From the NCBI GenBank assembly GCA_024641545.1, contig JAHECW010000014.1:1-51062 (forward strand): a stretch of 51,062 bases of DNA, read 5' to 3'. The position numbers were made by a program, and so were the translations under genes. Below, piece by piece: positions 2,481 to 29,224 of the stretch. The notes beneath the pieces are model-generated. The model saw nothing but the letters and a program-made list of their open reading frames with translations. It had not been told where the DNA came from and made no database searches. Each line of letters begins with the position of its first letter. The first letter of the stretch is position 1. This stretch comes from Acidobacteriota bacterium. GTDB taxonomy: Bacteria; Acidobacteriota; Thermoanaerobaculia; Thermoanaerobaculales; Sulfomarinibacteraceae.

Positions 2481-3785
2481 CTACTTGATGCCGGCGAACT
2501 CCTCGAGCATGGCCGTGGTGACCGACTTGGGCCGTTCGATGGGATAACCCAACGCGCGATCCCAGGTGATGTTGGTCAGCACGCCGAGGGCGCGACCGAT
2601 GCCGAAGAGAACCGTGTAGAAATCCCACTCGGTGAGACCGTAGTACCACTGGATCACGCCGGACTGCGCGTCGACGTTGGGCCACGGGTTCTTGGCCTTG
2701 CCGTGCTCGGTGAGGACACCCGGCGCCACCTTGTAGATCATGGAGATCACCTTGAACAAGGGGTAGTCCGGCAGGTTCTTGAGACAGAACTCACGCTGCG
2801 ATTCGTACCGCGGGTCGGTCTTGCGGAGCACCGCGTGACCGTAGCCCGGGATGACCTGACCCGAGTTGAGGGTATCCCAGAGCGCCTTCTTGATGACCTC
2901 TTCCGTCGGTTCCTGGCCGCCGAGTCCCTCCATGAACTTCATCGTCCAGCTCAGCACCTCCTGGTTCGCCAGGCCGTGCAGGGGACCGGCGAGACCGTTC
3001 ATGCCGGCCGACAAGGAGTAGTACGCATCCGACAACGCCGACGCCACGAGATGGGTGGTGTGGGCGGAGACGTTCCCCGACTCGTGGTCGGAGTGGAGAA
3101 TGAAGTACATCCGAGCGACGTCGTCGTAGGGCTTGGCAATACCCATCTGGTGGGCGAAGTTGCCGCCCATGTCGAGGCTCGGATCCTCGTCGATCTGTTC
3201 GTCATTCTTGTACTTGAGGCGGTAGATGAAGGCCGCGAGGGTCGGGAGCTTGGCCATCAGGTTGCAGGAGTCCTCGAACATCGGCTCCCAGTACTCCATC
3301 TTGTTCATGCCCTCGTTGTAACGCTTGACGAACTCCGACTCGCGCTGCATGGCGACGATGCCTGCCGAGAACATGGTCATCGGGTGGGTGTCGGCCGGCA
3401 TCGCCCGCATGATGTCCTTGACGTACTGCGGGAGCTGGCGGCGCTTCTTGAAATCGGCGACGACTTCCGCCGCCTGCGCGGCGGTGGGGATGTCACCGGT
3501 CATGAGGTAGTAGAAGAAGCCCTCGACGGACGGGTAGTCCTGGCCCTTTACGGCCGGGAGCGCCGCAAAGGTCTCGGGGATGGTGCGACCGCGAAAACGG
3601 ATTCCCTCGAAGGGATCCAGATAGGACACGTCGGTGACCAGGCACTTGACCCCGCGAGCGCCGCCGATGGCTTGGCCGATGGTCACTTCGCTGATCTTGA
3701 CATCACTGTGTTCTTTGAGCAGCCGAACGGTTCGCGGCCGGTGCTCGTCAATTTTCTTTTTCAGGGCTTCCTTGAGAGTCGACAT
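2481..3785 (-). CDS. gltA: Citrate synthase, type I (mitochondrial-like)
   Basis: This cytosolic enzyme condenses acetyl-CoA and oxaloacetate to citrate, the entry step of the TCA cycle. The product has 434 residues. All three catalytic residues are present: His270 in GPLHGLANQE, His317 in GYGHAVLRKTDPR and Asp372 in NVDAQSG, almost the same numbers as in pig citrate synthase (274/320/375). SDHESGNVSAHT and MNGLAGPLHG are typical of the eukaryote-like type I group, which is also known from Geobacter. I chose ATG at 3785 because AAGGAG lies 7 nt upstream. A TTG two codons earlier (3791) overlaps the ribosome site. The gene has its own promoter and terminator. Two more citrate-synthase-family genes lie at 26.9-29.2 kb, but this is the likely housekeeping enzyme. 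Confidence 0.97.
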   Translation of the reverse strand: MSTLKEALKKKIDEHRPRTVRLLKEHSDVKISEVTIGQAIGGARGVKCLVTDVSYLDPFEGIRFRGRTIPETFAALPAVKGQDYPSVEGFFYYLMTGDIPTAAQAAEVVADFKKRRQLPQYVKDIMRAMPADTHPMTMFSAGIVAMQRESEFVKRYNEGMNKMEYWEPMFEDSCNLMAKLPTLAAFIYRLKYKNDEQIDEDPSLDMGGNFAHQMGIAKPYDDVARMYFILHSDHESGNVSAHTTHLVASALSDAYYSLSAGMNGLAGPLHGLANQEVLSWTMKFMEGLGGQEPTEEVIKKALWDTLNSGQVIPGYGHAVLRKTDPRYESQREFCLKNLPDYPLFKVISMIYKVAPGVLTEHGKAKNPWPNVDAQSGVIQWYYGLTEWDFYTVLFGIGRALGVLTNITWDRALGYPIERPKSVTTAMLEEFAGIK

Positions 3786-3908
3786 GTCCAATCTCCTTTT
3801 GTGGCCTCGGCGGCTGCAACAGCCGTGACTCAGACGGTGCGCCGTCGTTCCGATTCGTTCGAATTCAGCTTCTCGATTCTGATTTCAAGGGTCGCGCTCA
3901 CGCAACAG

Positions 3909-24262: not shown

Positions 24263-26806
24263 ATGACCGCGAAAACCAGGCCACGATCGATCACCACCAC
24301 CCTCATCGCTCTCACCTTTCTCGCGGCGGGAATCGCCACCGCGAACGACGACTCACTGATCCGAATCGAGCGACGATCAGATGGCGATCGCAACGCCCTC
24401 ATCGATGCCGGCATCACCCTGGTTGCCGAGACCGATGACGCGCTCTTCGCCATCGGTGCGGCCGAGGCTGTCCTCCCTGCGGCCGAGGGTCGCTCGCTGA
24501 TCGCAACCATGGTCAAGGAATCGACTGGACACACACGCTTTGCCCTCGCCGGTCTGCGGCCCGGCTTCAGCGAAACCGACCTCCTCGCCTGCGGTACTGT
24601 CATCGCCCGCGGTTTCGACTGGCTCCTGGTCGAAGAAATCGACTTCTCGACCCCGGAGTGTCGTGAATCCAGCGGCTGGTTTCTCCACCTGATGGACATG
24701 GACCCTCTCGCCGCGATCAAGGCGCAACCGGCTCCGAAGCAGGGATTCCGGCAGTCGAACCCCCTGGTTCAGGAGATGGTCGACCGCGTCGACGGCGCCC
24801 TCGCCCTGTCCCATTGGGCGGCTCTTTCCCAGTCGACCGGGTGGACCACCAGGTACTCGAGCTCACAGGGCTGCCTCGATGCCGCTTCCTATGTTCACGA
24901 TCTCTTCTCGGTCTTTGGGCTGGCTCCCGAGTATCAGCACCACACCGGCGGCTACGCCGACAATGTCATCGGCACCATTCCCGGTCTCAGCGATCCGGAT
25001 CTGGTCTACATCGCCATCGGCCACCTCGATGATCTCCCCTCTTCCGGGCCCGCTCCCGGCGCCGACGACAACGCCAGCGGGACGGCCATGGTGACCGCGC
25101 TCGCCGAGGTCATGTCGGATTACTGCTTCGCCCGCACCACCAGATTCGTCGCCGTCACCGGCGAAGAGCAGGGTCTTTACGGCAGCAATTACTATGCCGA
25201 CCAGGCCGCAGCCGCCGGCGAGAACATCCAGGCCGTGCTCAACGGCGACATGATCGGTTGGGAGGGCGACGGCCAACCCGCGGTCGAGAACCTCGACGTC
25301 AACTACAACTCGGGTTCGCAGTGGCTGGCCCAGGCGATGATCGATGCGTCGGCGACCTACGGCACCGGTCTTCAGATCAACGCCTTCTCCTGCTCGAGCA
25401 TGGTGTACTCGGACCACGCGCCGTTCTGGAGCAACGGCTTTTCGGCGGTCTGCGGGATCACCGACAACGAGGGATTCTGCGGCCAGAGCGGGAACTACCC
25501 CTTCTACCACCAATCATCAGACACCATCGCCAACTGCGGCCCCGGGGCGGCGGATTTCGAGGCCGCCGTCATTCGAACCTACCTCGCCACCATGGCGCAC
25601 CTGGCGCAGCCGCTGGCCAAAGTCCCCGAGCCGCCGAGCGCCGTCGTCGCCCAGGCCGACGGAGACAACCGGATCGCGTTGAGTTGGGCGGGAGCCGGCC
25701 CGGGCCTCACCTACCGGATCTTCCGGTCCACCGGGACCTGTGCCGACCCCGGCCCAGCCGTGCCTGTCGGTGAAACCGGATCGACGTCGTTTGTCGATGC
25801 CACCGTCTCGGGTGGCGTCCCCTATGCCTATTTTGTCGCTGCGACCGCCGCAGGCAGCTGTTCTTCCGAGATCTCGAGCTGTGTCGGGGCAACCACCACC
25901 GGGACCTGCACCGAGCCCCCTTCCTTCGCCGGCATCGACTCGGTAGCGAATCCCGGTACGACATCGTGCCGGCTGGATCTCGGTTGGCAGCCGCCCCAAA
26001 GCGTGTGGTGCGGCGGCCCGGTGGTCTACAACGTCTACCGATCCGCGACACCCGCCTTCACCCCGTCGCCGGCCAACCGCATCGCCCATCAGATCAGCGC
26101 CACCGACTTCCACGACAGCGACGTCATCTTTGCCGAAAACTACCACTACATCGTTCGCGCCGTTGATCTCGCCCACGGCGGCGAGGACGGCAATACCCGC
26201 GAGCTGGCATCCACTCCGACCGGTCCGAGTGTGATCGGCACCTGGAACGACGATGCCGGGGACACCGCGCCCGCCGCGCTGGTTCAGGCGAGTCCATGGC
26301 ACGTCGCCGCCGGCGCCGGTGTGAGCGGCGCCGCCTACGCCACCGGAACCTATGGCAACAATCTCTGCGCCGCCCTGACGACACCCCCGTTGGATCTCGA
26401 TACCGCCCCTCAGGTGGAATTCTGGTCGAAGTACGACACCGAAAACGACTGGGACAAAGGCGAACTCCAGATTTCCACCGACGGTGGATCTTCGTGGCAA
26501 CGCGTGTCCATGAGCTACCCGGGGGTTTCGACCCACACCAACGACGCCTGCGGTCTCGGCACCGGCGGATTTTTCACCGGAGGTCAGTCAACCTACGCGG
26601 CCTTCACCGCCGATCTATCGCCGTGGACGGGCCAGAGCGCGATGCTTCGCTGGGTCTTGTCATCCGACGGCTCGCTGGTGGGCGATGGTTGGTGGATCGA
26701 CGAGATCTCCATCACCAATGTCGCCGTCCCCGGAGTCTGCACCGGCGCCGAGGTGCTCTTCAGCGACGGCTTCGAATCCGGCGATACGTCGGCGTGGTCA
26801 AATTGA
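24263..26806 (+). CDS. Secreted M28-family zinc peptidase with FESGDTSAWS tail
   Basis: The 847-residue exported enzyme has a signal peptide (TTTLIALTFLAAGIATA). The M28 catalytic domain spans about 185-460 with all metal and catalytic residues in order: His254 (AIGHLDD), Asp268 (GADDNASG), Glu301-Glu302 (VTGEEQG), Asp329 (LNGDMIG) and His385 (YSDHAPF). Such enzymes are aminopeptidases using two zinc ions. Two FN3-like domains follow (about 465-640), then a jelly-roll domain (VEFWSKYDTENDWDKGEL, GDGWWIDEISI). The C-terminus is LFSDGFESGDTSAWSN, a tail shared by many exported proteins of related bacteria and perhaps used in sorting or anchoring. GGAGG lies 4 nt before the ATG. Confidence 0.93.
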   Translation: MTAKTRPRSITTTLIALTFLAAGIATANDDSLIRIERRSDGDRNALIDAGITLVAETDDALFAIGAAEAVLPAAEGRSLIATMVKESTGHTRFALAGLRPGFSETDLLACGTVIARGFDWLLVEEIDFSTPECRESSGWFLHLMDMDPLAAIKAQPAPKQGFRQSNPLVQEMVDRVDGALALSHWAALSQSTGWTTRYSSSQGCLDAASYVHDLFSVFGLAPEYQHHTGGYADNVIGTIPGLSDPDLVYIAIGHLDDLPSSGPAPGADDNASGTAMVTALAEVMSDYCFARTTRFVAVTGEEQGLYGSNYYADQAAAAGENIQAVLNGDMIGWEGDGQPAVENLDVNYNSGSQWLAQAMIDASATYGTGLQINAFSCSSMVYSDHAPFWSNGFSAVCGITDNEGFCGQSGNYPFYHQSSDTIANCGPGAADFEAAVIRTYLATMAHLAQPLAKVPEPPSAVVAQADGDNRIALSWAGAGPGLTYRIFRSTGTCADPGPAVPVGETGSTSFVDATVSGGVPYAYFVAATAAGSCSSEISSCVGATTTGTCTEPPSFAGIDSVANPGTTSCRLDLGWQPPQSVWCGGPVVYNVYRSATPAFTPSPANRIAHQISATDFHDSDVIFAENYHYIVRAVDLAHGGEDGNTRELASTPTGPSVIGTWNDDAGDTAPAALVQASPWHVAAGAGVSGAAYATGTYGNNLCAALTTPPLDLDTAPQVEFWSKYDTENDWDKGELQISTDGGSSWQRVSMSYPGVSTHTNDACGLGTGGFFTGGQSTYAAFTADLSPWTGQSAMLRWVLSSDGSLVGDGWWIDEISITNVAVPGVCTGAEVLFSDGFESGDTSAWSN

Positions 26807-26870: not shown

Positions 26871-28091
26871 ATGCGGTATAAATATCGCGTGAACATCCTC
26901 CCCACCCTTTCGGCCTCGTTCGACTGGAAAGCCGAGAAGATCGACTGGCCGGTGACCACCGAGGTCGGCCGAGGCCTGTCCGGGGTTATCGCCACGACCA
27001 CCGATGTCATGTGGCTCGACCCGGCGAGCGGCAGGTTGACCTACCGCGGCGAACCCGTCGAGACGCTCGCCGCCAGCAACAGTTTTGAGGAGGTCGCGTG
27101 CCTCCTGATCACCGGTTCGGCGCCGGAAACCGACCCGGCGGCCTACCGGGTCGTCCGCGACCAGCTTCGCTCCGGTCGGATGCTGCCAGCAGACGTCGTC
27201 GGTTTGATCCGGGACCTCGAACCCGCGACGCACCCGACGCGGTTGCTCCGTGCGGGAATCTCGGCCCTCGGTTGCCACGAGCTTTCGGTGGATGACGACC
27301 TTTCCGGCGAACAACACTGGCGCGAGCTGCGGATCGTCGGGCAGATCGCCGCGTTGGCGGCCGAAATCGCCGCTCACCGGGCGGGTCGAGGTTCCCCGCC
27401 GATCGACGTCGACGCCAGCCTCCCGGAGTCGGTCCTGGCCGGACTCAACGGCTGTCGCCCGGACCCTGAAGACGTCCGGGTGCTCGATCTCCTGTGGGTG
27501 CTCTATGCCGCGCACGGCCTCGACGCGCCGACCTTCACATCCATGGTGGTCGCCTCCTGTCTCGCGGATCCGTATTTCAACATCGTGGCCGGCCTCTCCG
27601 CCCTCCGGGGTCCGCGCCAGGGAGGCGCCGGCGAGGCGGTCCTCGACCAGCTCGCTGCGCTGAGCGAACCTCGCGCCGCCGGAACGCTGGTCCGGCGGAT
27701 CCTCGACGAGGGCCGCCCCATTGCCGGATTCGGCCATCGAAGCTATCGGATGCCCGACCCCCGGGTCGTGGTCCTCCGGCGCGAGCTCGCCGCCCTCGCC
27801 AACCGGCGTGGACGGCCCGAGATCTTCGAGGCGGCCCGCGCGATCGAGACCGCCGCCACCGCAGTCCTGGCCCCGCGCGGCGTCCACGTCAACATCAACT
27901 TCTACGCCGCTCCGATCTTCCACCTTCTGGGCGCCGACGCTGCCTTCGGACCATGTCTCTTCGCGGTCGGAAGAACCGCCGGTCTGGTCGCGCTGGTCCG
28001 TGAAGCCATGGACACGATTCGCCTGGTGCGGCCGCTGAGTCGGTACGTCGGCCCCTCAGAACGATCCCTGCCGGATCCGGGGTCGACATGA
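26871..28091 (+). CDS. Citrate-synthase-family protein lacking two catalytic residues
   Basis: The 406-residue protein follows the citrate synthase fold throughout: LSGVIATTTDVMWLDPASG, LTYRGEPVETLAASNSFEE, AHGLDAPTFTSMVVASCLAD and GFGHRSYRMPDPR. Of the three catalytic residues only His289 (GFGHRSY) remains. The first His is Gln250 (GPRQGGAGE instead of GPxHGGANE), and the Asp is Asn343 (VNINFYAAP instead of NVDFYSG). It is therefore probably catalytically dead and may be a structural or regulatory subunit. Its ATGA overlap with the next, intact paralogue supports a heteromer. ATG 26871 has a weak ribosome site. GTG 26889, 8-11 bp after a TATAAAT box, could be a leaderless start. Confidence 0.88.
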   Translation: MRYKYRVNILPTLSASFDWKAEKIDWPVTTEVGRGLSGVIATTTDVMWLDPASGRLTYRGEPVETLAASNSFEEVACLLITGSAPETDPAAYRVVRDQLRSGRMLPADVVGLIRDLEPATHPTRLLRAGISALGCHELSVDDDLSGEQHWRELRIVGQIAALAAEIAAHRAGRGSPPIDVDASLPESVLAGLNGCRPDPEDVRVLDLLWVLYAAHGLDAPTFTSMVVASCLADPYFNIVAGLSALRGPRQGGAGEAVLDQLAALSEPRAAGTLVRRILDEGRPIAGFGHRSYRMPDPRVVVLRRELAALANRRGRPEIFEAARAIETAATAVLAPRGVHVNINFYAAPIFHLLGADAAFGPCLFAVGRTAGLVALVREAMDTIRLVRPLSRYVGPSERSLPDPGST

Positions 28092-29224
28092 TCGGCGGGT
28101 CACGATCGCCATCGCCCCAGACCTACGCTCGCGGTCTCGAAAACCTGGTCGCCGGCGACACCCTGATCAGCGACATCGACGGCCGGACGGGCCGCCTGCT
28201 CTACCGGGGATACCCCATCGCCGACCTGGTCGAACGCTCCACCTTCGAAGCCGTCAGCTATCTCATTCTCCAGGGTGAGATCCCGACCGCCGCCCAGCTC
28301 GAAGACTGGGAGAACGAACTCCGGCGCTGGCGGCGACCACCGCGCGCCGCGTTTGACGCGCTGGAGAGAGTTCCCCGCCGCGCCCATCCTCTCGCCCAGT
28401 ACCGGACGATGCTCACCGTTGCCGCGTGTCACACGCCCGAGCCGGAGAACACCACCCTCGACGCACAGTGGCGCCGCCCGGCCCGAATCCTCAGCTGGAC
28501 CGCGGCCCTCGCGGCCGCAGCGATCCGCCACCTCGACGGCTTGGGCCCCGTCGAGCCGTCCGACGATCTCGGTTTTGCCGCCAACTTCCTCTACCAGACC
28601 CTCGGCGTGATCCCGCCGGAGGACGAGATTCGGGCCTTCGAAGCCAGTCTCATCGTCCAGGCCGAACACGGTCTCCACGCTGCCGCATTCGCGGCCCTGG
28701 TCGTGATTTCCACGGGCGCGGACCTCGGTTCGGCCGTCCTGGCGGGGATGGGCGCCCTCTCCGGGGCCCGCCACGGCGGCGCCAGCCAGCTCGCATACGA
28801 GATGATGGCCGGGCTCCGGGACGCCGATCAGGCACGCACCTGGGCGCGAGCCGCACTCGGTCGCGGTCATCGATTCCCGGGTTTCGGCCACCGCGTCTAC
28901 CGCTGCCCCGACCCGCGGGTCAAAGCTCTCGAAGGCCACGCGGAGGCCGTGCTCAAGAACCACGGGATGGAGCACCGTTGGCAGGTCTACACCGCCCTCC
29001 GAGACGAAGTGGAGACCGTCCTGGGTCCGAAGGGAATCTATGCCAATGTCGACTCGATCACCGGCCTCCTCTATCGACCCATGGGTCTTCCGGTCAGCGC
29101 CTTCCCCATCCCGTTCTGCCTCGCGATCCAGACCGGCTGGATGGCCCACTGCCTGGAGTACCTTCCGGACGGCCCGATGATCGAACCCGGAGCGGTGTAT
29201 GTCGGCTCAACCGACAATTCTTAA
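28088..29224 (+). CDS. Citrate/2-methylcitrate synthase family enzyme
   Basis: The 378-residue, short (type II-like) citrate synthase family protein has all catalytic residues: His229 (GARHGGAS), His268 (GFGHRVYRCPDPR) and Asp322 (NVDSITG). The N-terminal part has the typical DIDGRTGRLLYRGYPIADL. It condenses an acyl-CoA (acetyl- or propionyl-CoA) with oxaloacetate; which one cannot be read from the sequence. The start overlaps the stop of the preceding paralogue (ATGA), so the two are translationally coupled. It is distinct from the type I enzyme at 2.5 kb. No prpB or prpD gene is adjacent, which weakens a methylcitrate-cycle assignment. The stop codon lies inside an AT-rich inverted repeat. 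Confidence 0.92.
   Translation: MIGGSRSPSPQTYARGLENLVAGDTLISDIDGRTGRLLYRGYPIADLVERSTFEAVSYLILQGEIPTAAQLEDWENELRRWRRPPRAAFDALERVPRRAHPLAQYRTMLTVAACHTPEPENTTLDAQWRRPARILSWTAALAAAAIRHLDGLGPVEPSDDLGFAANFLYQTLGVIPPEDEIRAFEASLIVQAEHGLHAAAFAALVVISTGADLGSAVLAGMGALSGARHGGASQLAYEMMAGLRDADQARTWARAALGRGHRFPGFGHRVYRCPDPRVKALEGHAEAVLKNHGMEHRWQVYTALRDEVETVLGPKGIYANVDSITGLLYRPMGLPVSAFPIPFCLAIQTGWMAHCLEYLPDGPMIEPGAVYVGSTDNS

Follow-up and report, generated by a model that had tools for sequence, protein, structure and literature searches.

Reciprocal loss of active site residues in an overlapping pair of citrate synthase paralogues from an Acidobacteriota genome

Citrate synthase (CS) is a textbook homodimer, in which each active site is built from two histidines, an aspartate, and two arginines of one subunit together with an arginine from the C-terminal tail of the partner subunit. 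The catalytic roles of His274, His320, and Asp375 of the pig enzyme are well established. How two overlapping genes of this family can be maintained side by side when neither product carries all of these residues is the question raised by the stretch of DNA considered here (51,062 nucleotides, hereafter the window), which comes from a draft genome in 310 contigs (G000).

Family, fold, and active sites of the two proteins

The products of the upstream and downstream genes (P1 and P2, Table 1) both match the CS family profile PF00285, with E values of 1.5e-80 and 5.2e-94, respectively, and both align with solved citrate synthases across almost their full length. The AlphaFold monomer model of P2 finds its best match in the Thermus CS 1ixe (TM 0.85), and a monomer model of P1 in a Sulfolobus CS (TM 0.77), so that profile and fold together place both proteins in the CS fold. 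P1 and P2 share 28% identity; with Thermus CS, P1 has 32% and P2 37%. Both score below the curated thresholds of all NCBIfam CS models; for cit_synth_II (TIGR01800) the pair scores 261.8 and 299.1 bits against a curated cut-off of 421.3. Alignment of orthologues favors the GTG over the ATG start of P1. The ATGA shared by the stop of P1 and the start of P2, pointed out in a preliminary description of this DNA and confirmed here, is likely to couple their translation.

Table 1. Features of the P1/P2 gene pair in the window. Residue numbers of P1 count from ATG 26871; equivalent pig CS and S. tokodaii ST0587-CS positions are given in parentheses.
Feature	Positions	Strand	Remarks
P1, CS-family pseudo-subunit	26889..28091	+	400 aa from GTG 26889; 406 aa from ATG 26871
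P1 Tyr-Phe-Asn, start of interface helix M (bulky side)	27573..27581	+	Most divergent of 352 three-residue windows, P1 vs P2
P1 Gln250 at first catalytic His (pig His274; ST0587-CS His215)	27618..27620	+	Q/T/L/I/V in 16/16 P1
P1 Asn343 at catalytic Asp (pig Asp375; ST0587-CS Asp310)	27897..27899	+	Asn in 13/14 P1, His in 1
P1 Arg368, substrate arginine kept (pig Arg401)	27972..27974	+	14/14 P1
P1 Arg387, cross-subunit arginine kept (pig Arg421')	28029..28031	+	13/14 P1
ATGA stop/start overlap of P1 and P2	28088..28091	+	ATGA or GTGA in 14/14 readable pairs
P2, CS-family partner subunit with His/His/Asp	28088..29224	+	378 aa
P2 Gly-Ser-Ala, same place in helix M (small side)	28727..28735	+	
P2 His229 kept (pig His274)	28772..28774	+	16/16 P2
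P2 His268 kept (pig His320)	28889..28891	+	16/16 P2
P2 Asp322 kept (pig Asp375)	29051..29053	+	14/16 P2; Tyr in G532, Gly in G563
P2 Ile347 in place of substrate arginine (pig Arg401)	29126..29128	+	Arg absent in 16/16: Ile 14, Val 1, Asn 1
P2 Glu366 in place of cross-subunit arginine (pig Arg421')	29183..29185	+	Glu in 14/16, Ala in 2/16 P2

In the S. tokodaii enzyme ST0587-CS, the substrate residues comprise His180, His215, His254, Arg263, and Arg335 of one chain and Arg354' of the partner, and an arginine at this last position (pig Arg421') enters the active site of the partner subunit in known CS dimers (PMC5021468). Alignment to ST0587-CS places all of these residues, as well as the catalytic Asp310, in P1 and P2, with Arg335 equivalent to pig Arg401 and Arg354' to pig Arg421'. 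As the preliminary description had it, P1 carries Gln250 and Asn343 for the first histidine and the aspartate and keeps only His289 of the catalytic set, and alignment to solved citrate synthases does not restore the missing histidine and aspartate. The same description correctly credited P2 with His229, His268, and Asp322, but its further claim that P2 is intact does not hold, as Ile347 and Glu366 occupy the positions of two of the three substrate-binding arginines; the third is kept in all 16 P2 sequences. Substrate-loop changes are also fixed in P2, with NVDSITG for NVDFYSG. Thus P1 lacks the complete His/His/Asp set that a functional CS homodimer carries in one chain, and P2, which in the window has all three, could not as a homodimer supply two of the three substrate arginines, one of which comes from the partner. 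Each protein is without residues that the other keeps; the loss is reciprocal.

Distribution and conservation of the pair

The pair is found in 16 genomes, distributed over one Acidobacteriota family (the window genome and four more), one small phylum (that of G332), and one metagenome-assembled genome (MAG) labelled Thermodesulfobacteriota. In the small phylum, P1 occurs in 10 of 39 genomes and P2 in exactly those 10. The Thermodesulfobacteriota-labelled MAG is the sole carrier among 198 genomes searched around it; an IS200-like transposase gene adjoins the pair there (L100), which, together with the absence of the pair from the 197 relatives searched, suggests horizontal transfer or misbinning as possible origins.

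Throughout these genomes the pair behaves as a unit. P1 and P2 are adjacent in all of them, or lie at contig ends where the pair is split, and the overlap is present in every one of the 14 readable pairs (as GTGA once), with P1 identities down to 42%. Each protein forms a single clade with 100/100 support, the branching orders of the two clades largely match, and the P1 and P2 distance matrices are correlated (r = 0.91; 0/5000 permutations). Both proteins are under purifying selection, with dN/dS of about 0.07-0.29 where dS is unsaturated, which bears out the earlier view that the upstream gene is selected and not decaying.

The residue pattern is likewise conserved. The first histidine is lost from all 16 P1 sequences and the aspartate from all 14 that can be read there, the equivalents of Arg401 and Arg421 being kept in 14/14 and 13/14; in P2, both histidines are kept and both of these arginines lost in 16/16, with the aspartate present in 14. 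In the ordinary CSs that the same searches returned, about 40 in number, all key residues are retained; the sole substitution at these positions is Glu for the aspartate, in one of the two members of every head-to-head CS pair described below. Recurrence in 16 genomes makes the pattern more than chance, and the locus has the sequence properties expected of an enzyme-pseudoenzyme heteromer, namely, loss of catalytic residues from a paralogue that is under selection and linked to its partner.

The division of residues between P1 and P2 is not absolute. In two distant pairs P2 lacks the aspartate (Tyr in G532, L107 8096-9211; Gly in G563, L108 1585-2700), apparently through separate events within one branch, and P1 of G541 has exchanged the cross-subunit arginine for Tyr. 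In the branch formed by G541, G532, G563, and G558, the catalytic set thus erodes further while the pair persists. A different kind of variation is seen in P2 of G536 (L104 2309-3601), which has about 57 extra residues inserted where the small domain begins; the other aligned members lack them. More distant matches (L037-L042, L072-L077) were considered as P1 orthologues and rejected, every key residue being intact in them, and a plasmid search returned, among the matches listed, only ordinary CSs or head-to-head pairs of less than 37% identity.

The dimer interface and a proposed mixed dimer

In S. tokodaii CS, helices F, G, L, and M form the core of the dimer (PMC5021468), and the interface helices of the pair were assigned from this published account and the P2 monomer model. 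Fixed differences between P1 and P2 are enriched in these four helices (15/41, compared with 7/51 positions conserved alike; p = 0.01, computed among conserved positions and no more than moderately significant once conservation is controlled in this way). The start of helix M reads Tyr-Tyr/Phe-Asn across P1 sequences and Gly-Ser/Gly-Ala across P2 sequences, with ordinary CS intermediate. Mean volumes of residues 200-202 are 501 cubic angstroms in P1, 233 in P2, and 369 in ordinary CS; the sum for P1 and P2 is 734, compared with 738 for two ordinary chains, the most extreme case among the 352 windows. Such volumes are what a knob-in-hole heterodimer would be expected to leave.

Because the complementary split recurs in 16 genomes, P1 and P2 most likely function solely in combination with each other, and a heteromer, which the preliminary description had also suggested, is the best reading of reciprocal loss, co-occurrence, and coupling as these appear in the sequences. 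In the form judged probable on balance, P1 and P2 would make an obligate heterodimer of CS fold with one usable site, P1 lending the arginine that this site is missing. P2 would supply the acyl-CoA-activating histidine and aspartate, the second histidine, and one arginine; P1, unable to do the chemistry, would supply the cross-subunit arginine that Glu replaces in P2. Of the two sites in each dimer, that of P2 would then be usable and that of P1 dead. Coupled translation would allow both subunits to be made together, and the altered packing at the M helices would disfavor homodimers. Such an enzyme would probably join an acyl-CoA to a 2-oxo acid in a CS-like condensation, with substrate or control changed, since P2 is also without its own second arginine. 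The role first suggested for the pseudoenzyme, that of tuning substrate or regulation, may be part of the picture, but because a P2 homodimer would want two substrate arginines, P1 seems to be more than a tuner and to complement P2 both structurally and in substrate binding.

Alternative readings and related systems

Loss of P2's own second arginine to Ile347 implies that even the mixed site would not be a normal oxaloacetate site. A tentative extension of the mixed-dimer reading is therefore an obligately heterodimeric CS-family enzyme whose single site is split between two degenerate subunits, neither able to function by itself, and whose substrate is a 2-oxo acid without the second carboxylate of oxaloacetate, so that the protein would not be a citrate synthase; as it overlaps the heterodimer proposed above, confidence in the one is not to be added to confidence in the other. 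The absence of the Arg401 equivalent from all P2 sequences and the fixed changes in the substrate loop both fit such a substrate, as do the neighbors of the pair in part of the small phylum: four genomes have an aminotransferase gene after it in the same orientation, and two of these four have a gene for 2-oxoglutarate dehydrogenase E1 further on. The substrate itself, however, cannot be read from sequence, and these neighbors are not conserved in the Acidobacteriota family, in which the pair is flanked by a peptidase-like gene (24263-26806 in the window, so assigned by reading its translation) and convergent unrelated genes. A conserved operon that would explain the function was rejected, as the Acidobacteriota share nothing beyond inherited synteny and the neighbors vary between lineages. 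Downstream of the pair in G332 (L099 11078-17271), genes on the same strand encode histidine kinase, aminotransferase, PAS, and DUF438/hemerythrin proteins and a nitrilase-family hydrolase, an order shared in part by G531, G533, and G535.

Rather unlikely is a heteromer that has given up synthase chemistry altogether and acts as a metabolite- or acyl-CoA-binding regulator. Persistence of the pair, under purifying selection, after loss of the P2 aspartate in G532 and G563 makes a non-catalytic role possible, at least in that branch, and the lack of two of three substrate arginines from every P2 points the same way. The presence of ordinary CS is also in keeping with it. All genomes with the pair except G006, a 96% complete draft, contain a further CS-family match, so that the pair adds to the cycle enzyme and does not replace it, and the idea that it serves as the cell's sole CS was rejected. 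The window's other CS (2481-3791, minus strand), catalytically intact by its residues, had rightly been noticed at the outset as a separate, ordinary enzyme, but it is of the eukaryote-like Si-CS type (PRK09569, close to TIGR01793) and not, as then supposed, of the E. coli type I. Pure binding, however, would require less than P2 retains: its two histidines and third arginine are invariant (16/16), and the aspartate is present in 14/16. Moreover, profile searches found no regulatory domain attached to P1 or P2, and neighboring genes differ between lineages.

Two independent homodimers that are merely co-transcribed, P2 being a CS of altered substrate and P1 a separate binding or regulatory protein, are improbable. 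A dicarboxylate could indeed bind to P1, which retains one subunit's substrate-binding histidine and arginines, but reciprocal loss, strict co-occurrence, coupled translation, and the mismatch in bulk at helix M all argue against separate dimers, and a P2 homodimer would place Glu366 and Ile347 where substrate arginines belong. Decay of a duplicate pair, suggested by the absence of catalytic or substrate residues from both proteins, is hardly credible and was rejected given dN/dS well below 1 for both, conservation, recurrence in separate lineages, and frames that are open throughout.

Among known systems, the dimeric type II CSs (Thermus thermophilus 1iom; S. tokodaii ST0587-CS, 1vgp) resemble the pair in fold and length. 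P2 shares with them the His/His/Asp set and one arginine, and P1 the cross-subunit arginine; they are, however, homodimers with complete sites, whereas P1 and P2 each lack a different subset of site residues. A functional parallel is offered by trypanosome AdoMetDC, a live enzyme that needs a dead paralogue, the prozyme, which relieves its autoinhibition (PMC5201418); P1, in contrast, is proposed to supply an active site residue. The open-access literature searched yielded no description of a heteromeric or pseudoenzyme-bearing CS, in line with the preliminary description, nor of tandem, coupled CS genes whose products have reciprocally lost parts of a common active site. If correct, the proposal would make the locus a clean natural case of the passage from homodimer to obligate heterodimer, with 16 members to compare, some with further losses, and a warning against the annotation "citrate synthase" for either gene.

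Adjacent CS paralogues as such are known from Caulobacter, where, of the two, only CitB complements E. coli gltA (PMC7083601), in contrast to CitC. Like P1/P2, Caulobacter citB/citC (compared by description) and the head-to-head pairs of Agrobacterium and Terriglobia consist of two neighboring CS genes. In the head-to-head pairs compared (L011-L013, L110, L112; from Terriglobia, Agrobacterium, and Niveispirillum), however, both members keep both histidines and all arginines, one having Glu for Asp and the other an N-terminal extension, with neither ATGA coupling nor reciprocal loss; the window pair is tandem and overlapping and has other residue changes. The paralogue with Glu for Asp is the shorter one and carries the motif TNVE[FY]YTA in all five (L011, L012, L013, L110 3459-4559, and L112).
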